Shown here: in pieces, positions 18,381 through 63,176 of the stretch | Layout of the letters: every line of letters begins with the position of its first letter | Numbering within the stretch: position 1 is the first letter of the stretch | From: Scatophagus argus | Taxonomy: Eukaryota > Chordata > Actinopteri > Scatophagidae | Assembly: GCF_020382885.2 (NCBI RefSeq) | Contig: NC_058497.1 | Coordinates: 20,886,330-20,950,329 of the forward strand | Direction of reading: 5' to 3' | Length of the DNA: 64,000 nt | Translations under genes and position numbers: made by a program | The notes under the pieces: model-generated | What the model was told of the DNA's origin: nothing | Databases searched by the model: none | Seen by the model: the letters and a program-made list of their open reading frames with translations, nothing else

Positions 18381-21300
18381 ATGGAAATAATTTGTTTCAG
18401 CAACATGAAACGATGGAGAATCCAAACTGCATACCTCTTGCTTCTGAGTGTCAGTATTTTGCCAAGTAAGTTTGCATTTATTTTTATTTACTTCGTGTGA
18501 AATCTAAAATGTTGATATCAGAATCAGAATTCCTTTATTTATCCTTTATTTGATAGGGTATAAACAATGTTTTTTCAGAGATTCTGATACAACATTTGCA
18601 TGAAACATCGAGGTTCATTTTATTAATATTTTGTGTATCATCGGTTTCTCTTCACATTCCCAGTCCTCTTCTAGGCGAGCTCTTACCCAGAAACTTGAAG
18701 CCAGTTGTTGAGGGATTTGCTTTCATCATAATCCCACAGCCCTTCTTTGTATCCGAGGCTTTACTGAAAGTGTTTCAGGATTAACATCTGGCTGGGTCAC
18801 AAAATCCATTGTTGACAATAGAAACAAGCCCCAGTTAGAATATAAATTGTGCTTCAAGTGGCTTTGAAACGTGGCAAAATTCAATCTGGAAATGCTCTTC
18901 TGTTGAATAATTATCGACTGTCCTGCTTTCACAGCACAGGAATGTTTAGTCTCCCTGTCCCTCAGCTCTTTTTGAGACTCATATCTGTGGATTAACTGTT
19001 CAATCAACACATGCTAAAAGTTCAAATACACCGTCTGAACAGAGAAAGTCACTGCTGGTACATTATGGCAGATTTTCCTGATCCCTTTCTCGAGCTTTAT
19101 AGAAGGGCAAGCTAGCCTGACATCCCCTCTGTCCCCTCCCACCATCTGTCATGCGTTCACATTTTCTCTCTTTCTTCCCACGTCAGCATCCACGTCGCTG
19201 CATTTCCTATGAGTGTCCAGAAAATGGATTTTATCAAAAATGATCACATCAGAACACCATTTTAGCCAAACAGCCTGCTCATATTTTTCTATTTTCTTTT
19301 ACTTGAAAAAAAAAAAGTACAACATATGACTGTGATTTGTTTCTCTTCCTGTTTTAGCCTGTTGGTGTGCTCATGGGAAGTATGCTCAGAAGCTCCTGAA
19401 TGATTTATTCACCAACTACACCAGTGCACTGAGGCCTGTGGAGGACACAGACAACATACTGAATGTGACCCTGCAGGTTACACTGTCACAAATTATCGAT
19501 ATGGTAAAGAATAACACAGGGCGCACAAGTCGCCACCAACAGTCTGCGCAGATACCCACCCAGTGGCGTTAGACAAGTGATCTCATCTTTATTTTTTTTA
19601 TCTTGTTTTTGTTTTACCTGTGATGAGGCCCTGAGAGGCAAGTGAGAAAAAAAATAATGTGAAACAATAATGTGATCCATTTTTTCCAAGTCTGGTGTAA
19701 ATTGTTTTCTCTCCCGTGTTTGTGAAGAACAGGCGGGACAAAAACGTTTTTTTCCAGGGTGATCTTTAAACGTTACTCAGATCACTGTTGTGTCTTTCTA
19801 TTGGCCAAAAGCTTGTCAACACTGCAGATTAACACTGATTAAAATACATTTGAAGCCAAAAGGAAGACGTGACAGTAATATTTCACTGCACACACTGTGT
19901 AAGTGTATCTTGTGTTGTATGGAGAAATTAAACAATCCCGCCTCATAGAAATTGTTTAAACTCATTTGGAAGAGGAAATCCAAAGACTTCATTTACGTCC
20001 CTCATGGGATAACAAGGTGGGGGAGAGCAGGACTCCAACACTAGATACAGGAAAATATTGTGTTTTTGGTTGCTTTCCTGCAAGAAAACCATTTGTGACC
20101 TGCCATAGAAGTTAATTAATAACATTTGCTTATGTCTAGAGAAAACACATCTGGTCCTCATCATGTTTCCTTAGTAAATGAATTCGCTGTATGTTTTTCC
20201 TTACTTGCCTCTTGGGGCTTCCTGTATATGTCCCCTGTTGTTGCCACTTATTTCTATAATTTTCAATATTTCACAGGATGAGCGAAATCAAATTTTGACT
20301 GCATATTTATGGATACGGCAAGTGTGGGTAGATGCATACCTCAAATGGAATAAAGATGATTACGATGGACTCGATACCATCCGCATACCTAGTAGTTATG
20401 TATGGAGACCTGATATCGTCCTATATAACAAGTAGGTCGGACTGGTATTGGGTTGATCATTCAATTGTTATCCCAGCGTGGCTCCTGTTGATTAGTATAC
20501 AAGGCACAAGCTGAACATTCCTTGAAGCCTTTATTTATAGGAGTGTCCAGGCCTTTGTCTGCTCTTTATACACCAGTAACATATCTACTAATAATCCTGA
20601 CACAACAACACAAATGTAAATTTTACAATTAAAATCAAAGGTGCAACTTTTAGGAGACAGTGGAAGAGAGAGAAGGAAAGATGTAGGCCAGGGAGCAAGA
20701 ATTCCTACCAGTGCCTCTAATGACCTTACAATGAATATGATAAATAGGTAAGAACTAATACTATATACCAACTACATGCTTACACGCTAACACAAACACA
20801 TACTGGAAGGATATAAAATGCAGGCATAGCACTGAGGAAAGAGTACAACTCTTCTAAATGTGTTGACTCTTCCCTCGGTAGGTGTACTTGTGCCTTTGTA
20901 TCCTGATCAAGTTTATTCCTCACATCATTTCCCACCTTGTCTCTGCTCTTCGGAGATTCTTTAAAGGTATCCAAAACATCTACTTGCATTTCAGTGCTGA
21001 TGACCATTTCACTGGTCCCATGGACACCAACGTGGTGATCCGTCATGATGGCCTGATAATGTGGGATTCTCCAGCTATCACTAAGAGCTCCTGCAAAGTG
21101 GATGTGTCTTACTTCCCCTTCGATGCTCAGCAGTGCAGGTTCACATACGGCTCTTGGACCTACAATGGTAACCAGCTGGACATCCTGAATGCCCTGGAGA
21201 GTGCCGACCTGGCTGACCTGGTGGAAAATGTGGAGTGGGAGGTGCTGGGTATGCCGGCTAAGAAGAACGTTATTCTGTACGGCTGCTGTGCTGATCCTTA

Positions 21301-22920
21301 CCCCGATGTGACCTACACACTGAAACTGAAGAGGAAAGCGTCTTTCTATGTCTTCAACTTGCTCATACCGTGTGTGATGATCTCTTTCTTGGCTCCGCTG
21401 GGCTTCTACCTGCCTGCTGACTCTGGAGAGAAGGTGTCTTTGGGTGTCACCGTGATGCTGGCGCTCACTGTCTTTCAGCTGTTGGTTGCAGAGATCATGC
21501 CGCCCTCTGAGAATGTGCCACTTATTGGTGAGGACAGTAAAATCGGGTCAAATCCCACCCTTTATTTATATGGCATTTTTCTAAACATGGTTACAGAGAG
21601 CTTCACAGAAAAGGAAGAGAAAGAAAAAACAGCAGTTTAAAACTGCACAGATAAAGAATGTTGCATACCAAGAGCTGAACGCTAAAACCTCATAATTTTT
21701 ATCTAAGAATTCATAAATGATGTCCTTTAAAAGAAAGTTTTACAGGAACATTTAAAAGATCATAATTACATAGCCTGTCTGATCTCAATAGGCTGAGTGT
21801 TCCACATTCTGGTAACTCTGCTTTTAGTCTCAAGCCAGAACAACCAGGGAGCACAAAGGCAAATAGGTGGATCAATAAATCTTTTATATAATTTGTGGAA
21901 AATCTATTTAAAATTTTAAAATCAATACAAAATAAAACAGGTAGCCAGTGTAAGTTGGCCAGAACAGGAGTTGCATGCTCATATTTGTTGGTGCCTTTTA
22001 AAATTTGCAATCGGAGTTGGATTGTAGCAGCGTTATAGTAGTCAAGGCTTGGAAACATAAAAGCATAGATAACTTTGTGCAAACCAGGGCAGCAGGGTAG
22101 ATGTCCCGCTGAGGAGACGCAGGTTGGAAACCAATTTTTGTTATGACTGTTGACTTCCCTGTCTATTTTCTTCTTATTATTTATTTATAATTATTATTAT
22201 TTCTTATGTTTTTCTTCAGGAAAGTATTACATTGCCACAATGACCATGATCACAGCCTCCACTGCCCTCACCATCTTCATCATGAACATACACCACTGTG
22301 GCCCGGATGCCAAGCCTGTTCCCAAGTGGGCCAAGAAAGTCATCCTGCAGTATATGGCCAGAATGTGTTTTGTTTATGAAGTTGGTGAGAATTGCATGTC
22401 ACCACCTCCAGAGAAACAAGAGCATCCGCTTGTAAAGAACAACAACTGCAACATGAACGGTCAGGCAGGACCATGCAGAGAGGAATGTGTCCTCAAATTT
22501 GAGAACGGACAAGAGACAGCGGGCTCCACGATTGCAGAGGAGAGAGAAGACACGGATCAGATGATGAGTCCGATAGGCTCAATGGGCAAGAACCCTACCA
22601 GCCACTACAGCACCTGGAAGAATGGCGTGTTCATGAGCATGGACTGTGGAGACTCTGTGGATCAGAGGAGATGCAGGAAGGGAGGTGTGAGCGAGGCAGA
22701 GAGGAAAGACAGGGAGGTTTCCTGCATCACCCACAGCAATGAGAGGCAGCTACTGCGTAACATTGAGTACATAGCCAACTGTTACAGAGACCAGAGGGCC
22801 ACACAGAAAAGGACTGGGGAGTGGAAGAAAGTAGCCAAAGTTTTAGATCGCTTCTTCATGTGGATATTTTTCATAATGGTGTTTTTCATGAGCCTTCTTA
22901 TCATGGGGAAAGCCATATAA
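18381..22920 (+). CDS. chrna10: Neuronal acetylcholine receptor subunit alpha-10 (complete, five exons)
   Basis: Pentameric ligand-gated cation channel subunit; with alpha-9 it forms the efferent receptor of hair cells. Exons: 18381-18465, 19358-19503, 20277-20431, 20995-21527, 22220-22920. Phases join to 539 residues without a stop. Visible: signal peptide; sequon N48; Cys-loop C162 to C176 with 13 residues between; vicinal Cys pair C226-C227 in GCCADPYPD, marking an alpha subunit; M1 to M3 (residues about 240-335, including [20 protein letters not shown] as M2); a long cytoplasmic loop; M4 ending in [25 protein letters not shown] is diagnostic of the alpha-9/alpha-10 group. Alpha-10 is preferred over alpha-9 because the neighbours pgap2 and stim1 flank CHRNA10 in human; fish alpha-10 is known to resemble alpha-9. 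A second in-frame ATG at 18405 could be the true start. Intron 4 contains a LINE fragment. A damaged second copy lies at 26.2-27.3 kb. Confidence 0.93.
18466..19357. other. chrna10 intron 1
   Basis: Intron with GTAAGT donor. The part from about 19107 to 19185 is repeated at 26212-26296 and marks the left limit of the tandem duplication. Confidence 0.75.
19504..20276. other. chrna10 intron 2
   Basis: AT-rich intron. Positions about 19926-20195 recur at 26298-26580 with roughly 5 percent difference, so this intron was inside the duplicated unit. No gene inside. Confidence 0.75.
20432..20994. other. chrna10 intron 3
   Basis: Intron between the exon ending VLYN and the exon encoding the Cys-loop. 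Donor GTAGGT, acceptor TTTCAG. Nothing else recognised. Confidence 0.7.
21545..22110 (-). repeat. LINE fragment in chrna10 intron 4
   Basis: The minus strand at 21711-22082 reads as the C-terminal end of a non-LTR reverse transcriptase: [13 protein letters not shown], then [20 protein letters not shown], then a degraded tail. The pattern of LDYxNA followed by LHWLPV is typical of fish CR1/L2/Rex-like elements. It is truncated at its 5' end and is a fossil within the intron, opposite in orientation to the host gene. Confidence 0.75.
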
Positions 22921-25019: not shown

Positions 25020-25955
25020 TTATGTTGGAGTCAATTTTCTTCTCAGTACGTGAATAATTCTGTTGCGTAATGACTTTGTTTGCATTCCATAAATGACTGG
25101 ATTTAAATTAGCAGGGACTACATGAAACAAAATGTATGCAATCTTCCTTAAATCCGGGTAATCTGGGAAACGATGCAATATGATTGTTAAAAACCCCGAC
25201 CAGAGCATGATGAGGTAAAGAACAAGATGGCTTGCACACGTCTGTAGAGCTTTGTTATTCAGCTCTCTGTTCTTCTTTATCCAGCAGATGAGAGCTATTC
25301 GGAAATAAGTGACGGCTATGCTTCCCATAGAGCAACTGAACAGCAGCACAGTGAAAAAGAGTCCATAGATGTTGTTGATGGACACATCCTCACAGGAAAG
25401 CTTGAACAGAGACGCGTTGTCACAGTAAGCATTTAGTATGACTGATCTGCACCGAGACAACCTCACTGTGAGCCCTATGAGAACAGACACGAGCAGCACC
25501 GACAGCCCCCACGCACCTGCTGACAGCCCGATCACAGTTTTAGTGGTCATTACTGAGCTGTACTTTAAGGGGTGACATATCGCCACATATCTGTCAATTG
25601 CCATTATGATGAGAATCATGTGCGAAGCCGATCCAAACGTGTGGCTGTAAAAGGCCTGAACCACACACTGGCTGTAGGTGATGAACCGCTCGGTTGAAAC
25701 GATGTGAGCCATCAGCTGAGGCAGAAGCACGGTGTTACCGATCACATCGTTGACGGACAGGTTGCAAAAAAGAATGTACATGGGCTGGTGCAGACTCTTC
25801 TCGGTGATGATAAGGAGGAGTACTCCAAAGTTAGAGAAAAGCAGGCAAAAGTAAACAAACAGCAGTAAGAAAAACAGCGGGTACATGAACTCTGGAGATA
25901 TGTCAAAGCCTTGGATCTCTATTATACCACCAGAAACTGTCATGTTGTTTTCCAT
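25020..25955 (-). CDS. Odorant receptor (duplicate A1)
   Basis: Intact intronless seven-transmembrane G-protein-coupled receptor of 311 residues, expected in the olfactory sensory neuron membrane. Visible OR marks: N-terminal sequon N4-M-T; MYILFCNLSVND in TM2; MAIDRYVAICHPLKYSSVMT at the end of TM3; ECL2 cysteines; KALQTCASHL before TM6; NPVIYGMQTKSL in TM7. The ATG is the only one that gives a normal N terminus. It differs from the copy at 28799-29734 in only seven residues, all in the last third. Subfamily is probably the fish delta-like group by its general look, but this was not tested. Ligand unknown. Confidence 0.95.
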   Translation of the reverse strand: MENNMTVSGGIIEIQGFDISPEFMYPLFFLLLFVYFCLLFSNFGVLLLIITEKSLHQPMYILFCNLSVNDVIGNTVLLPQLMAHIVSTERFITYSQCVVQAFYSHTFGSASHMILIIMAIDRYVAICHPLKYSSVMTTKTVIGLSAGAWGLSVLLVSVLIGLTVRLSRCRSVILNAYCDNASLFKLSCEDVSINNIYGLFFTVLLFSCSMGSIAVTYFRIALICWIKKNRELNNKALQTCASHLVLYLIMLWSGFLTIILHRFPDYPDLRKIAYILFHVVPANLNPVIYGMQTKSLRNRIIHVLRRKLTPT

Positions 25956-26211
25956 TCTGTTTCATTTGATGAAAAACATTAAACAGAAAAAATGTAGTAA
26001 AAAATAAAAAAAAATAAATCACGTTAAATTTTAAATGTGCACAATAACAGAACGCATGTAGTGAACAGTTCAGCTGGACCTGTTAACTGATTAAGTTCAG
26101 TATTCTTCTCCTGTAAGTACAAATGTTTCAATCATCTGAGCTCTTTTATCTTCAGCACAAGTGACATTTCACATTGATTCACTGCCCTCCCCATTAGAGA
26201 GCCAGCATTTC

Positions 26212-28798: not shown

Positions 28799-29734
28799 TT
28801 ATGTTGGAGTCACTTTTCTTCTCAGTACGTGAATAATTCTGTTGTGTAATGACTTTGTTTGCATTCCATAAATGACTGGATTTAAATTAGCAGGGACTAC
28901 ATGAAACAAAATGGATGCAATCTTCCTTAAATCCGGGTAATCTGGGAAACGATGTAATATGATTGTGAAAATCCCCGACCAGAGCATGATGAGGTAAAGA
29001 ACAAGATGGCTTGCACACGTCTGTAGAGCTTTGTTATTCAGCTCTCTGTTCTTCTTTATCCAGCAGATGAGAGCTATTCGGAAATAAGTGACGCCTACGC
29101 TTCCCATAGAGCAACTGAACAGCAGCACAGTGAAAAAGAGTCCATAGATGTTGTTGATGGACACATCCTCACAGGAAAGCTTGAACAGAGACGCGTTGTC
29201 ACAGTAAGCATTTAGTATGACTGATCTGCACCGAGACAACCTCACTGTGAGCCCTATGAGAACAGACACGAGCAGCACCGACAGCCCCCACGCACCTGCT
29301 GACAGCCCGATCACAGTTTTAGTGGTCATTACTGAGCTGTACTTTAAGGGGTGACATATCGCCACATATCTGTCAATTGCCATTATGATGAGAATCATGT
29401 GCGAAGCCGATCCAAACGTGTGGCTGTAAAAGGCCTGAACCACACACTGGCTGTAGGTGATGAACCGCTCGGTTGAAACGATGTGAGCCATCAGCTGAGG
29501 CAGAAGCACGGTGTTACCGATCACATCGTTGACGGACAGGTTGCAAAAAAGAATGTACATGGGCTGGTGCAGACTCTTCTCGGTGATGATAAGGAGGAGT
29601 ACTCCAAAGTTAGAGAAAAGCAGGCAAAAGTAAACAAACAGCAGTAAGAAAAACAGCGGGTACATGAACTCTGGAGATATGTCAAAGCCTTGGATCTCTA
29701 TTATACCACCAGAAACTGTCATGTTGTTTTCCAT
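28799..29734 (-). CDS. Odorant receptor (duplicate A2)
   Basis: Intact 311-residue OR, product of the tandem duplication that also left the chrna10 fragments. Same motifs as A1: N4 sequon, MAIDRYVAICHPLKYSSVMT, KALQTCASHL, NPVIYGMQTKSL. It differs at the end of TM5, in TM6, before TM7 and at the tail (for example SVGVTYF against SIAVTYF, SGIFTIIL against SGFLTIIL, KVTPT against KLTPT). The N-terminal two thirds is identical to A1 at DNA level. Both copies are open, so both may be expressed. Confidence 0.95.
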   Translation of the reverse strand: MENNMTVSGGIIEIQGFDISPEFMYPLFFLLLFVYFCLLFSNFGVLLLIITEKSLHQPMYILFCNLSVNDVIGNTVLLPQLMAHIVSTERFITYSQCVVQAFYSHTFGSASHMILIIMAIDRYVAICHPLKYSSVMTTKTVIGLSAGAWGLSVLLVSVLIGLTVRLSRCRSVILNAYCDNASLFKLSCEDVSINNIYGLFFTVLLFSCSMGSVGVTYFRIALICWIKKNRELNNKALQTCASHLVLYLIMLWSGIFTIILHRFPDYPDLRKIASILFHVVPANLNPVIYGMQTKSLHNRIIHVLRRKVTPT

Positions 29735-44660: not shown

Positions 44661-46300
44661 CAGTGGTATGAAAAAGTTTGGACACCCCTGATCATTTTCA
44701 GGATTTTCCTTTATAAATCATTGGTTGTTCGGATCAGCAATTTCAGTTAAATATATCATATAGCAGACAAACACAGTGATATTTCAGAAGTGAAATGAAG
44801 TTTATAGGATTAACAGAAAGTGTGCAATAATTACTTAAACAACATTAGGCAGGTGCATAAATTTGGGCACCACAACAGAAAAATGACATCAATATTTCGT
44901 AGATCCTGCTTTTGCAGAAATAACAGCCTCTAAACGCTTCCTATAGCTTCCAATGAGGGTCTGGAGTCTGGTTGAAGGTATTTTTGACCATTCTTCTTTA
45001 CAAAAAATCTCCAGTTCAGTCAGGTTTGATGGTTTCCGAGCATGGACAGTCCGCTTTAAATCACACCACAGATTTTCAGTAATGTTCAGGTCTGGGGACT
45101 GAGATGGCCATTCCAGAACGTTGTAGTTGTTCCTCTGCATGAATGCCTTTGTAGAGTTTGAGCAGTGTTTGGGGTCGTTGTCTTGTTGAAGTATCCAGCC
45201 CCGGCGCAACTTCAACTTTGTCACTGATTCTTGAACATTGTTGGCAAGAATCTGCTGATACTGACTGGAATCCATGCGACCTTCAACTTTTACAAGATTG
45301 CCAGTACCTGCACTGGCCACACAGCCCCACAGCATGATGGAACCACCACCAAATTTTACTGTGGGTAGCAAGTGTTTGTCTTGGAATGCTGTGTTCTTCT
45401 TCCGCCATGCATACCGCCCCTTGTTATGTCCAAATAACTCAATTTCACATTCATCAGTCCACAGCACCTTATTCCAAAAGGAAGCTGGCTTGTCCAAATG
45501 TGCTTTAGCATACCTCAAGCGACTCTGTTTGTGGCATGTGCGTAGAAAAGGCTTCCGCCGCATTACTCTCCCATACAGCATCTCCTTGTGCAAAGTGCGC
45601 TGAATAGTTGAACGATGCACAGTGACACCATCTGCAGCAAGATCATGTTGTAGGTCTTTGGAGCTGGTCTCTGGGTTGAGTTTGACCGTTCTCACCATTC
45701 CTCGCCTCTGCTTATCAGAGATTTTTCTTGGCCTGCCACTCCGGGCCTTAACTAGGACTGTGCCTGTGGTCTTCCATTTCCTCACTATGTTCCTCACAGT
45801 GGAAACTGACAGCTTAAATCTCTGAGCCAGCTTTTTGTATCCTTCCCCTAAACCATGATGTTGGACAATCTTTGTTTTCAGGTCATTTGAGAGTTGTTTT
45901 GAGGCTCCCATGTTGCCACTCCTCAGAGAAGATGCAAAAGGGAGAACAACTTGCTACTGGCCACCTGAAATACCCTTTCTCATGATCGGATTCACCTGTG
46001 TATGTAGGTCAAGGGTCAATGAGCTTACCAAACAAACTTTGTGTTCCAATAATTAGTGCTAAAGGTACTCAAATCAATAAAACAACAAGGGTGCCCAAAT
46101 TTATGCACCTGCCTAATGTTGTTTAAGTAATTGTTGCACACTTTCTGTTAATCCTATAAACTTCATTTCACTTCTGAAATATCACTGTGTTTGTCTGCTA
46201 TATGATATATTTAACTGAAATTGCTGATACAAACAACCAATGATTTATAAAGGAAAATCCTGAAAATGATCAGGGGTGCCCAAACTTTTTCATACCACTG
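44661..46300 (-). mobile_element. Complete Tc1-like transposon (1.64 kb)
   Basis: Bounded by inverted repeats of about 211 bp (44661-44871 and 46090-46300), about 98 percent matched, each with an outer and an inner TTTGGxCACC direct repeat (IR/DR type). Both ends start CAGTGGTATGAAAAAG and abut TA, the expected target duplication, inside a TA/CA-rich tract. It encodes one full-length transposase. The well-matched ends point to a fairly recent insertion. Confidence 0.95.
44889..45911 (-). CDS. Tc1-family transposase, intact frame
   Basis: 340 residues, the usual length, single frame. N-terminal helix-turn-helix DNA-binding domain (about 1-55, then a second one about 75-115), GRPRK AT-hook-like linker at 59-63, basic stretch RKWK. 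Catalytic triad D153 (LWTDEC), D244 (QQDNDPKH) and E279 (TENLW), with 34 residues between the last two: DD34E. The glycine-rich box VKFGGGSIMLWG is at 185-196. The usual DLNPIENLW reads DLNITENLW here, an altered pair next to the catalytic Glu, so activity is uncertain. Acts on the inverted repeats of its own element. Confidence 0.95.
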   Translation of the reverse strand: MGASKQLSNDLKTKIVQHHGLGEGYKKLAQRFKLSVSTVRNIVRKWKTTGTVLVKARSGRPRKISDKQRRGMVRTVKLNPETSSKDLQHDLAADGVTVHRSTIQRTLHKEMLYGRVMRRKPFLRTCHKQSRLRYAKAHLDKPASFWNKVLWTDECEIELFGHNKGRYAWRKKNTAFQDKHLLPTVKFGGGSIMLWGCVASAGTGNLVKVEGRMDSSQYQQILANNVQESVTKLKLRRGWILQQDNDPKHCSNSTKAFMQRNNYNVLEWPSQSPDLNITENLWCDLKRTVHARKPSNLTELEIFCKEEWSKIPSTRLQTLIGSYRKRLEAVISAKAGSTKY

Positions 46301-57179: not shown

Positions 57180-58145
57180 ATGATTGCCAATGTCACAATG
57201 ATGAAAAGCTTTTCCATCCTTGGATTCCCCGGACTTTCATCGCAATATTATGGACCTGTGTCAGCTCTGCTTTTTTTCTTCTACCTTGCTATTTCAGTGG
57301 GAAATGTTTTCATTTTGGCATTTGTTCTATATGAGAAGTCCTTGCAAAAACCGACTTATCTGGTCTTTTGTCACCTGGCACTGAATGACTTAACTTTTGG
57401 CACCGTGACTCTCCCAAAGATCATATCAAAGTATTGGTTTGATGATAGCATTATTTCATTTTATGGGTGCTTCACACAGATGTTCTTTGTTCATTATTTA
57501 GGATCGGTGACGTCCTTCATCTTGTTGGTCATGGCTCTCGATCGATTTATTGCAATATGTATTCCACTGCGTTATCCTGTGCTAATTACAAACAACATCA
57601 TATCAGTGCTCTGTGGCTTTGCTTGGTTCATACCTCTACCTCTGATGGTAGCTGTCGTACTCCATGTCCTCACTTTACCTTTCTGTAAATCAAATGTCAT
57701 CGCTCAGTGCTATTGTGACCACATTTCTATAACAAGTCAGGCATGTGGTCAGGATGTTAAAATAGTTGCAGTCACTTCTCTGTGTGTGGCCATGTTTTGT
57801 CTTTTGGTCCCTCTTGCATTCATCTTGTTTTCCTACATTTCCATTATTGTGGTTATTATGAAAATGTCCAATGCTGCGGGCCGCAAGAAAACCTTATCAA
57901 CTTGCACCCCACAAATATTTATCACATGTCTTTTTTACCTACCCAGGTGTTTTGTTTATGTGGCTAATACTGTTGGATTTTCTTTCAGTTTAGATGTTCG
58001 CATTTTATTGATATTGTTGTACAGTCTTTTTCCTCCTGCTGTTAATCCCTTCATATATTGTTTCAAGACTCAGGATATCAAGCAGAGTTTGATAAAGAAG
58101 CTTAAAACAACTAGGATTGGAATAGAGGTTAAACTTTCATTATAA
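57180..58145 (+). CDS. Odorant receptor (duplicate B1)
   Basis: Intact OR of 321 residues. Sequon N4; GFPGLSSQYYG; ALNDLTFGTVTLPKIISKYW (TM2 to ECL1); MALDRFIAICIPLRYPVL (DRF instead of DRY); ECL2 CKSNVIAQCYCDHISITSQAC; GRKKTLSTCTPQ before TM6; NPFIYCFKTQDIKQSL (TM7). Nearly identical to the gene at 62208 apart from two short divergent islands, residues 153-170 and 197-203. Same strand and same branch as 53243. Confidence 0.95.
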   Translation: MIANVTMMKSFSILGFPGLSSQYYGPVSALLFFFYLAISVGNVFILAFVLYEKSLQKPTYLVFCHLALNDLTFGTVTLPKIISKYWFDDSIISFYGCFTQMFFVHYLGSVTSFILLVMALDRFIAICIPLRYPVLITNNIISVLCGFAWFIPLPLMVAVVLHVLTLPFCKSNVIAQCYCDHISITSQACGQDVKIVAVTSLCVAMFCLLVPLAFILFSYISIIVVIMKMSNAAGRKKTLSTCTPQIFITCLFYLPRCFVYVANTVGFSFSLDVRILLILLYSLFPPAVNPFIYCFKTQDIKQSLIKKLKTTRIGIEVKLSL

Positions 58146-58199
58146 TAATGAAATATGATGATTTTGTTGCCTTAATTTTCAAGAAATGTGACTGTACTA

Positions 58200-58375
58200 C
58201 TGTACTATAGAAAATGTTGTGCTTGCAGGTTTCATTACTGTGAAGCCTTTATTTTAAGAGTGATTTACTGCTTTTATTGATATTGTTTTACAGTCTTTTT
58301 CCTCCTGCTGTTAATCCCATCATATATTGTTTCAAGAAAAGATAAGAATAGAGATAAAACTTTCCTACTAATGTA
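58200..58375 (+). pseudogene. OR 3'-end remnant
   Basis: From about 58276 the sequence repeats the last part of the B-type OR: LFPPAVNPIIYCFK is readable, followed by a broken copy of the tail. The preceding 58200-58260 resembles the 3' flank of the gene at 62208 (near 63285). A scrap of a further OR copy. Confidence 0.75.
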
Positions 58376-58499
58376 AAACTAAGCAGATGAGGCAGGATGC
58401 ACACAATAAACCAACAGCAGGATTTATCAACTTGAACTTGGACTACAAATTTAACTCTTAATACTATTTTCCCGTGGCCAAATTTTAGTCTTGGCCTTC

Positions 58500-59640
58500 T
58501 TGTTCTTTGCGGCGCCAGAAACAGGCTTGACAAACTGTGAACTCGTCACCTGAACTCGTCAGAGGAGGACTCTGACGTGTTCAAGTGAGCGTGCTCCGTC
58601 ATTTCCGGTTTGTCGCACACTGCGCTAAGCGTTGCATTGTGGTGTTCTGCTCTGCTCTAGATTCTTAAGTTAAAGCTCTTTCGTTGTTGTCCATATTAGA
58701 GCTCATCTACACATTAAAAACTCACATTACTGTTGTTAAGCATTTGCCTCTATCTTATCACTTTAGCTTAAGCTTATAGCTCCATAAGTTGCACTTGGCT
58801 ATAGCCTCTCCTTCCTTCTCCCCCTCTGCTGCTCAGTCCTGCTCGGTGTGTCAAATGTTTAGTTATTCTTCCGCCTCCATTAGTGGTTGGTTGGTTAGGT
58901 TGGAGGCGAAGGTTAGCGATTTGGAATGTCGATTTGGAGCCACATAGCTTAGCCTTTAGCTCTCCTCCGACAACTCCCGAGCAGCCGGGAAACCAGGGCC
59001 GGTGGGTGACTGTTCGTAGAAGGCATAGCTTCAGACCAAAGCCCGCCGAGTGCTACCAACCACTTAACGTTTCTAATAGGTATTCCCCACTCGGCGACAC
59101 ACCCGCCAAGGAAGTGGGTCTCTCCATGGCCCTGCCTGGATCCTGCTGCTCCTGCTCTGCACTGTTCTCTCTATCCACCCTGTCTCTCCTCTCCCCCCTC
59201 TCCTTTCTCTCTCTATCCACCCTGTCTCTCCTTTCCCAATCTCCTTTCTCTCTCCATCTCCCTGTCTCTCCTCTCCCAATCTCCTTTCTCTCTCCATCTC
59301 CCTGTCTCTCCTCTCCCCCCTCTCCTTTCTCTCTCCATCTCCCTGTCTCTCCTCTCCCCCCTCTCCTTCCCAGCTGGTCGCAGCAGAAGGCCGTCTACAC
59401 TGAGTCTGGTTCTGCTCGAGGTTTCTGGCTGTTGAAAGGAAGTTTTTCCTCGCCACTGTAGCCAAATGCTTACTCAGTGTGGGGTTTTGCCCTGGGACCT
59501 GTTTCTGTTTGATTCTCTCTCTTTTTTTTTCTTTTTTTTTTTTTTTGAATGTGTTGTTTACACACCCGTAAAGTGTCTTGAGATAACTCTGTTATGAATT
59601 GGCACTTTAAATAAAACTGAATTGAATTGAAATGAATTAT
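58500..59640 (+). repeat. Composite non-LTR-like repeat with internal minisatellite
   Basis: The left part encodes WVTVRRRHSF and VSNRYSPLGDTPAKE, resembling the N-terminal ORF1 stretch of fish LINEs. The right part has CTCGAGGTTTCTGGCTG, then AAGTGTCTTGAGATAACTC and an ATTGA-rich tail, a known fish LINE-type 3' end. A minisatellite sits between. I infer an internally deleted retrotransposon copy; the family is uncertain. Confidence 0.55.
59160..59372. repeat. Polypyrimidine minisatellite
   Basis: Four to five units of about 45 bp built from CTCTCC, CTGTCTCTCC and CCATCTCC blocks; almost pure pyrimidine on this strand. It gives long open frames in both directions that are artefacts. Confidence 0.85.
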
Positions 59641-62207: not shown

Positions 62208-63176
62208 ATGATCTATATTAATGCCACAAAGATGAAAAGCTTCTCCATCCTCGGATTCCCTGGACTTTCACCACAATATTATGGACCTGTGTCAGCTCTG
62301 CTTTTTTTCTTCTACCTTGCTATTTCAGTGGGAAATATTTTCATTTTGGCATTTGTTCTATATGAGAAGTCCTTGCAAAAGCCAACTTATCTGGTCTTTT
62401 GTCACCTGGCACTGAATGACTTAACTTTTGGCACCGTGACTCTCCCAAAGATCATATCAAAGTATTGGTTTGATGATAGCATTATTTCATTTTATGGGTG
62501 CTTCACACAGATGTTCTTTGTTCATTATTTAGGATCGGTGACGTCCTTCATCTTGTTGGTCATGGCTCTCGATCGATTTATTGCAATATGTATTCCACTG
62601 CGTTATCCTGTGCTAATTACAAACAACATCATATCAGTGCTCTGTGGCTTTGCTTGGTTCATACCTGTGTCTTTGATGGTCACCATTCTTGTCCAAGCCA
62701 TTACTTTGCCTTTCTGTAGATCAAATGTCATCGCTCAGTGCTACTGTGACCACATTTCTATAACAAGTCAGGCATGTGGTCAGGATGTTAAAATTGTACA
62801 AGTAAATACTCTTTGTATGGCCATGTTTTGTCTTTTGGTCCCTCTTGCATTCATCTTGTTTTCCTACATTTCCATTATTGTGGTTATTATGAAAATGTCC
62901 AATGCTGCGGGCCGCAAGAAAACCTTATCAACTTGCACCCCACAAATATTTATCACATGTCTTTTTTACCTACCCAGGTGTTTTGTTTATGTGGCTAATA
63001 CTGTTGGATTTTCTTTCAGTTTAGATGTTCGCATTTTATTGATATTGTTGTACAGTCTTTTTCCTCCTGCTGTTAATCCCATCATATATTGTTTCAAGAC
63101 TCAGGATATCAAGCAGAGTTTGATAAAGAAGCTGAAAACAACTAGGATTGGAATAGAGGTTAAACTTTCATTATAA
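62208..63176 (+). CDS. Odorant receptor (duplicate B2)
   Basis: Intact OR of 322 residues, one longer than B1 at the N terminus (sequon N5). Same frame and motifs: GFPGLSPQYYG, MALDRFIAICIPLRYPVL, CRSNVIAQCYCDH, GRKKTLSTCTPQ, NPIIYCFKTQDIKQSL. It differs from B1 mainly in the end of TM4/start of ECL2 (FIPVSLMVTILVQAIT against FIPLPLMVAVVLHVLT) and at the start of TM5 (IVQVNTLCM against IVAVTSLCV). These are regions that shape the binding pocket in ORs, so the two may differ in ligand range. Confidence 0.95.
   Translation: MIYINATKMKSFSILGFPGLSPQYYGPVSALLFFFYLAISVGNIFILAFVLYEKSLQKPTYLVFCHLALNDLTFGTVTLPKIISKYWFDDSIISFYGCFTQMFFVHYLGSVTSFILLVMALDRFIAICIPLRYPVLITNNIISVLCGFAWFIPVSLMVTILVQAITLPFCRSNVIAQCYCDHISITSQACGQDVKIVQVNTLCMAMFCLLVPLAFILFSYISIIVVIMKMSNAAGRKKTLSTCTPQIFITCLFYLPRCFVYVANTVGFSFSLDVRILLILLYSLFPPAVNPIIYCFKTQDIKQSLIKKLKTTRIGIEVKLSL

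Follow-up and report, generated by a model that had tools for sequence, protein, structure and literature searches.

Two odorant receptor genes of Scatophagus argus are nearly identical over most of their length and differ at one third of their bases in two short patches. How did this pattern arise, and is it connected with the odorant-binding pocket? The genes, B1 and B2, lie in a stretch of 64,000 nucleotides (the window), which is part of contig C5; the assembly comprises 48 contigs and 570.7 Mb. B1 (57180..58145, + strand) is an intact coding sequence in a single open frame (321 aa), and B2 (62208..63176, + strand) is likewise an intact open frame (322 aa). Both pass the cut-off of Pfam 7tm_4 (PF13853; 27 bits) with 178.2 bits for B1 (E 4e-52) and 178.6 bits for B2, over positions 3-277 of the 280 in the profile. 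They are vertebrate olfactory receptors, as the first-pass annotation had proposed. The top PDB matches of B1 are of the OR52c and OR51E2 types. The signature of OR51/OR52-type carboxylate receptors, given in an extract of PMC10703812 as Arg at 6.59 and Gly at 5.39, is absent from B1 and B2, which carry Thr at 6.59 and Ser/Thr at 5.39.

Distribution of the differences

B1 and B2 were compared at a fixed offset of 5031; the alignment is free of gaps from the fourth codon onward. The coding sequence (57189-58145) contains 40 differences, and these are clustered. A diverged 5′ margin (57189..57242; 7 of 54 bases differ) is followed by a homogenized tract L (57243..57635; 3 of 393), the last 282 bp of which (57354-57635) have no difference at all. 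Island 1 (57636..57689, codons 153-170; 62667..62720 in B2) covers the end of TM4 and the start of ECL2, with 18 of 54 bases changed. Tract M (57690..57761), which carries the cysteine part of ECL2, shows 1 difference in 72 bases. Island 2 (57762..57788, codons 195-203; 62793..62819 in B2) lies at the start of TM5, with 9 of 27 changed. Tract R (57789..58189; 4 of 401) reaches 44 bp beyond the stop codon, and its differences fall two in the coding sequence and two in the 3′ flank. All of these segments are given on the + strand. The widest gap between neighboring differences is 283, and the densest 54-bp window holds 18; the corresponding extremes in 20,000 shuffles are 277 and 13. The counts agree with the first-pass annotation, which had described 280 unchanged base pairs before 57636, about two changes in 390 bp after 57789, and islands with about one third of their bases replaced. 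The diverged 5′ margin, the poor match of the flanks, and the gene remnant downstream of B1 (both described below) were not part of that annotation.

Evidence for conversion between old loci

Silent and replacement changes were counted by the Nei-Gojobori method. In the two islands together, dS is 1.08 and dN is 0.30 (omega 0.28). In codons 59-152, 171-194, and 204-321, differences are present at 2 of 158 silent sites and 1 of 550 replacement sites. The contrast at silent sites between the islands and these homogenized codons is highly significant (Fisher P 1.6e-11). Because protein constraint cannot keep silent sites identical, the long tracts were homogenized; silent sites are as contrasted as replacements, so constraint on the protein is no explanation, and conversion between the paralogues homogenized the remainder. 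Positive selection without conversion was rejected on the same grounds. Differences in constraint alone were also rejected: B1 and its neighbor B4 are 25-38% apart where B1 and B2 are nearly identical. At the 5′ end, dS is 0.08 in codons 22-58 and 0.42 in codons 4-21, and this end is therefore a diverged margin.

Concordance runs were scored on sites polymorphic among B1, B2, B4, and B5, with 10,000 permutations. Two long concordant runs of 133 and 127 polymorphic sites were found (P 0 and 0.0001 of 10,000). A third run of 22 sites lies between the islands (codons 180-195). Its P value is 0.0004 when only codons 153-203 are shuffled and 0.9997 when the whole coding sequence is shuffled, a shuffle in which discordant sites are rare. 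Islands 1 and 2 are taken as two separate patches. The difference rates of tracts L, M, and R do not differ (chi-square P 0.86).

The loci are older than the homogenized tract, as is seen from their diverged flanks. Upstream, B1 and B2 share only short matches at chance level (the best within 1 kb spans 21 bp with E 0.008 and is not collinear). Downstream, 44 bp at 95% identity are followed by 52 aligned columns at 75% and by nothing more; at the threshold used for B1 and B2, no match to B4 was found in this downstream flank. B4 (65065-66024) and B5 (67051-68034) lie in the adjoining stretch, in coordinates continued from the window. A genome-wide DNA search with B1 hit at least four places, which are B1, B2, B4 (69%), and a gene remnant described below. 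No relative was found in viral contigs.

Within the islands, B1, B2, and B4 are about equally far apart. The distances in island 1 and island 2, respectively, are 0.33 and 0.33 for B1-B2, 0.35 and 0.52 for B1-B4, and 0.31 and 0.44 for B2-B4; in island 1, B4 is marginally nearer to B2 (0.315) than B1 is (0.333). Outside the islands, B1-B2 distances are 0.00-0.03 and B1-B4 distances 0.25-0.38, and in the 5′ margin the two values are 0.14 and 0.29. Of the 27 sites at which the islands differ, B4 shares the base of B1 at 8, shares that of B2 at 12, and has another base at 7 (binomial P 0.50), which places changes on both the B1 and the B2 lineages. O53 was tried as an outgroup and is too distant to polarize the changes (it agrees with B1 at 8, B2 at 5, and neither at 14); B4 was used instead.

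The pair thus has permutation-significant tracts of silent-site identity on a diverged background, in loci that predate them, as expected of interlocus conversion. It also has a divergence peak that includes silent sites within a homogenized gene, as in the Innan/Teshima model. We consider it probable that B1 and B2 are old paralogues that were gene-converted except for two patches, which keep the old divergence. The two genes would be old tandem duplicates inside a fish odorant-receptor cluster. Interlocus conversion would have homogenized about 0.95 kb (57243-58189), either as one patchy event or as a few events of similar age, leaving unconverted the end of TM4 with the start of ECL2 and the start of TM5. 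These patches would retain divergence built up in both genes since about the split from B4. The explanation draws on the silent homogeneity outside the patches, the high silent divergence inside them, the diverged flanks, the changes on both lineages, and the failure to find a plausible living donor. The islands are most likely what conversion left of the old divergence, and we infer that conversion never reached them, as opposed to their having come back from a gene since lost or not on our list. Against the explanation stand the slightly smaller distance of B4 from B2 in island 1, the frequency of short-tract import in this genome (see below), and a gene list that may be incomplete. An equally old paralogue acting as donor would be expected to give identical three-way distances, and three separate homogenized tracts require several events or one patchy event.

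Gene conversion with two patches left out is strongly supported. The first-pass annotation had gone further and proposed that conversion spares, or selection keeps, the segments in contact with the ligand. That proposal is supported in part. Ligand contact as the cause does not follow from the islands themselves, given their omega and their placement relative to the predicted contacts (P 0.14-0.18, see below).

Ligand contacts and the escape of the patches

The patches may have escaped by chance patchiness or by selection against converted pockets, and to each of these we give somewhat less than an even chance. Under selection, B1 and B2 would bind different odorants, and haplotypes with a converted pocket would have been lost for that reason; this is a serious candidate that falls a little short of even. 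As ligand contacts we used those given in the OR52cs/OR51E2 study (extract of PMC10703812): 3.33, 3.36, 3.37, 4.57, 4.60, 45.52, 5.39, 5.46, 5.47, 6.55, and 6.59. These correspond to B1 codons 105, 108, 109, 156, 159, 181, 200, 207, 208, 260, and 264, respectively. The transfer of generic numbers to B1 was derived from an alignment, and the contacts of B1 and B2 are predicted ones. The islands cover three of the eleven predicted contact codons (4.57, 4.60, and 5.39), two of which differ in residue (V/I at 4.60 and S/T at 5.39), in line with selection. Against it, the other eight contacts lie outside the islands, and B1 and B2 are the same at the listed TM3, ECL2, and TM6 contacts. Randomly placed islands include three or more contacts in 14-18% of cases, and the probability that both hit a contact is 0.074. 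The low omega of the islands also speaks against selection, as does the fact that 12 of their 14 replacements are conservative (BLOSUM62 >= 0).

Alternatively, conversion may have been patchy in a neutral manner, tract ends and mismatch repair leaving two patches by chance, a reading that we hold to be possible and just under even. To a like degree it is conceivable that the patches are conspicuous because their segments are intrinsically the most diverged. The equal difference rates of tracts L, M, and R are in keeping with neutrality.

Islands in other receptor pairs

Other receptor pairs of the genome bear on this choice. The PF13853 survey found at least 137 places (138 of 286 candidates were scored, and the repertoire may be incomplete). 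We aligned 130 genes: 100 were retrieved as short pieces, 25 came from the search loci, and the others are B1, B2, B4, B5, and O53. Seven places were excluded: one gene of a second tandem pair in the window, pair A (C5:20911364), the stop-bearing C11:16688529, and five fragments. Pair A is therefore outside the pair survey. Disjoint nearest pairs numbered 51 at d < 0.2 (five of them identical) and 38 at 0 < d < 0.10. With an island defined as at least 6 differences in 24 bp, 21 of the 38 close pairs contain islands, 43 in all, with the B pair included.

When the B pair is set aside, 41 islands remain. Of these, 22 overlap a contact codon, where 10.4 are expected (none of 20,000 circular shifts gave as many as 22), in favor of selection; 19 of the 41 overlap no contact, in favor of neutrality. 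Among islands with at least two silent changes, the overlap is 18 of 33 (8.8 expected, P 0.0003). For the 41 islands, pS is 0.557 and omega 0.32, and outside them pS is 0.035, a contrast that is partly due to the way dense windows were picked. Contact islands have an omega of 0.46 and other islands one of 0.14; outside islands it is 0.37. One of the 41, in L129/L138 (codons 32-54, 45 of 69 bp), seems to be an artefact of reading frame or alignment in the group of L134/L135/L138, whose members are shortened; this island overlaps no contact and was kept.

The segments that form the B islands were also examined in the 37 other recent disjoint pairs. Replacements are raised there, as selection would have it (pooled 2.03, 0 of 5,000 shifts; pair mean 1.67, P 0.0048), but silent changes are not significantly so (pooled 1.29, P 0.105; pair mean 1.07, P 0.37). 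In codons 103-112 of TM3, both replacements and silent changes are raised in these pairs. Fourfold sites within four codons of a contact, where the amino acid is kept, give further support to selection: 48 of 947 (5.1%) differ, against 3.1% elsewhere, a ratio of 1.66 (P 0.0066; eight regions were tested, of which this is one). The ratio is 1.81 in 8 older pairs, but it is 1.44 in distant pairs too, so much of the excess is baseline. For the B segments, the fourfold ratio is 1.19 in recent pairs (P 0.28), which again fails to favor selection, 1.63 in the 8 older pairs (P 0.0275), and 1.28 in distant pairs (P 0.0035).

Fourfold divergence on the TM2 side (codons 55-94) was observed to be very low in the 8 older pairs, at 0.05-0.09 against about 0.40 at codons 155-214, and below average in distant pairs, at 0.26-0.37 against 0.48. 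It is as if conserved motifs were homogenized family-wide or silent sites were constrained there.

Two pairs repeat the anatomy of B, with islands at TM4/TM5 or at TM5. L018/L021 are 95% identical over 968 bp around the coding sequence with little collinear flank, and have islands at codons 154-162, 170-175, and 197-205. L047/L060 are 95% identical over 1005 bp, also with little collinear flank, and have an island at codons 189-206. L028/L032 have TM3, TM4, and TM5 islands in an alignment of 85% over 1.3 kb, which extends about 0.45 kb beyond the matched part of the gene. L018/L021 and L028/L032 resemble B in having islands at both TM4 and TM5, which counts against chance patchiness.

Four further genes of the repertoire, L029, L031, L030, and L048 (contig C14, 23268129-23286698), stand in tandem, each exactly 5,915 bp from the next. 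Over the compared codons L029, L031, and L030 show no difference, and L048 is 2.9% off, with a dense patch at codons 228-236.

Control for detection bias

Unconverted paralogues differ most at the contact segments, so that islands are easier to see there. As a control null, dense segments were taken from more diverged pairs as templates. The overlap of 22 of 41 then has P 0.51 with templates at d 0.12-0.22, 0.03 at 0.22-0.32, and 0.001 at 0.32-0.45. The nearest templates reproduce the observed overlap (21.6 expected), as neutral patchiness would, but the more distant ones fail to do so; those at d 0.12-0.22 are perhaps part-converted themselves. Contact enrichment is thus strong against shifting and depends on the template once detection bias is controlled.

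A private class of 10 islands without a close third gene was defined after the data were seen. Seven of these overlap the B segments, where 1.7 are expected (shift P 0.0004), which adds to the case for selection, and seven overlap a contact (P 0.0076). When the threshold of the class is set at 0.5 or 0.9, the overlap with the B segments is 8 of 16 (P 0.0022) or 6 of 7 (P 0.0004). The shared islands overlap the B segments in 6 of 31 cases, with 5.0 expected. Under the same three sets of templates, however, the private islands give P values of 0.65, 0.25, and 0.0009 for the B segments and 0.90, 0.19, and 0.03 for contacts.

Selection on the pocket therefore appears plausible and not proven, and by these sequence comparisons it would be about evenly balanced with neutral patchiness. 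A wider reading is doubtful, though conceivable: receptors here may consist of a frame homogenized by conversion and of pocket-side cassettes that are guarded from conversion or swapped between paralogues. The guarded cassettes would then be the TM4 end and TM5 start of B1/B2, L018/L021, L028/L032, and L047/L060, and the swapped ones would be the shared islands, an assignment that is equally tentative. That conversion and diversification of the pocket would go on side by side throughout the repertoire is likewise a speculative suggestion.

Pair A is a case on the other side. These tandem duplicated receptors (25020-25955 and 28799-29734, - strand) are 96-97% identical in their main aligned blocks, with one 142-bp block at 89%. 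They have no difference over codons 1-212 and 8 in codons 213-311 (at that rate, the chance of none in 636 bp is 2.7e-8). The difference-free stretch (25320-25979) begins about 25 bp before the start codon and continues to codon 212, and the main aligned blocks on its flanks differ by about 3-4%. It is probably a conversion tract that takes in the pocket-coding part, through TM3-TM5. Identity through this part counts against guarded pockets and against a general rule of pocket-side islands.

The search for a donor

B1 and B2 could also have been alike throughout, one of them later gaining two short tracts from a third paralogue. We consider such an import unlikely. It has precedent, since receptors often share short tracts with third genes here: of the 39 islands that are 6 codons or longer (the two of B are included, and neither is shared), 23 have a third gene nearer than half the pair distance, which makes short-tract import common in this genome. 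Codons 87-101 of L118 (45 bp) are identical to those of L090, and the two genes are 18% different elsewhere, which looks like a short-tract transfer. L136, a near-twin of L118, differs from it at one third of sites in the same codons. Similarly, L106 is 2% from L095 in codons 259-275 and 18% elsewhere. The gene remnant beside B1 carries a near-identical stretch of 66 bp, which would also fit with import.

For the B islands, however, no gene among the 128 others is close enough to be the donor. The nearest third gene in island 1 is B4, at 0.31 from B2, and in island 2 B4 and L125, at 0.44; the partner is at 0.33. A third gene much closer than the partner was thus not seen among these 128, a list that may be incomplete, and the B islands are not of the shared kind. 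Neither the genome-wide DNA search with B1 nor the window provided a donor, and a donor inside the window was rejected since island matches elsewhere are no better than those of shuffles. The changes on both lineages (8 against 12) also argue against import, though an equally old donor would look alike. A single imported tract of 153 bp would need to match at 71 of the 72 bases between the islands.

Assembly or read error as the source of the islands is very improbable: the identical 282- and 263-bp stretches that flank them could in principle let very short reads swap islands between the loci, but both frames are open, replacements are fewer than silent changes per site in the islands (Fisher P 0.014), at 20 of the 27 island sites B4 has the base of either B1 or B2, the window has no N in an assembly of so few contigs, and islands are present in 20 other receptor pairs.

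Comparison with known systems

Conversion that left out two patches, our preferred explanation, makes the B pair a new case of a known kind of divergence peak. The theory of a peak that selection keeps in converting duplicates is established and is exemplified by primate opsins (extracts of PMC3924837 and PMC3213168). The catarrhine red/green (L/M) opsins are, like the B pair, tandem GPCR genes homogenized by conversion, and their peak at the function-tuning exons is ascribed to selection against conversion. Gibbon L/M opsins also resemble the B islands in having fewer replacements than silent changes per site (same extracts). In the opsins, unlike the B pair, the tuning residues are known and orthologues were compared. 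The B peaks differ from the opsin exons in being 54 and 27 bp long inside one open frame.

In chemoreceptors, gene conversion is described as making mosaic OR/VR receptors or replacing one paralogue by another (review PMC1995454, citing Sharon et al. 1999); paired pocket-side islands such as those of B do not appear in the excerpted text. In the zebrafish OR repertoire, dN/dS is higher in TM1 and TM3-6 than in loops, with one site above 1 in each of TM3 and TM4 and two such sites in the third extracellular loop (extract of PMC1325023). That study, unlike ours of the B pair, is a repertoire-wide codon analysis; in this extract, conversion is mentioned only as something that may have contributed to the evolution of the family. 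Comparable to B, subfamily 9 of the channel catfish OlfC genes shows GENECONV events between its paralogues (extract of PMC6588630). These fish chemoreceptors are V2R-type, and genes with conversion were removed ahead of the selection test. Among the titles and abstract openings listed in searches for OR conversion, we found conversion of chemoreceptors and no paired pocket islands.

If selection guards the islands, they mark the segments that separate two otherwise near-identical receptors, and odorant-specificity chimaeras would be a means of testing this. Even if they are neutral, near-identity of fish receptor paralogues can be the result of recent homogenization of old genes, and the ages and dN/dS of such genes therefore need tract-aware analysis.

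Other elements of the window

A remnant of a third copy lies downstream of B1 (58248..58380, + strand). It consists of TM7 and the C-terminal end, with about 55 bp missing. Within it, 58272-58337 matches B2 at 65 of 66 bases and B1 at 64 of 66; the match is 12 of 24 just upstream and 25 of 32 in the diverged tail. Upstream of the receptors, 21020-21640 holds part of a gene for a subunit of a nicotinic acetylcholine receptor (alpha-7, and also alpha-9, are its best matches in the PDB). In mammals, CHRNA10 is located near class I OR genes. An ORF of 340 aa for a Tc1/Sleeping Beauty-type transposase (44889-45911, - strand) is situated within the receptor cluster. Between B1 and B2, about five pyrimidine-rich tandem units of 41 bp occupy 59166-59368.
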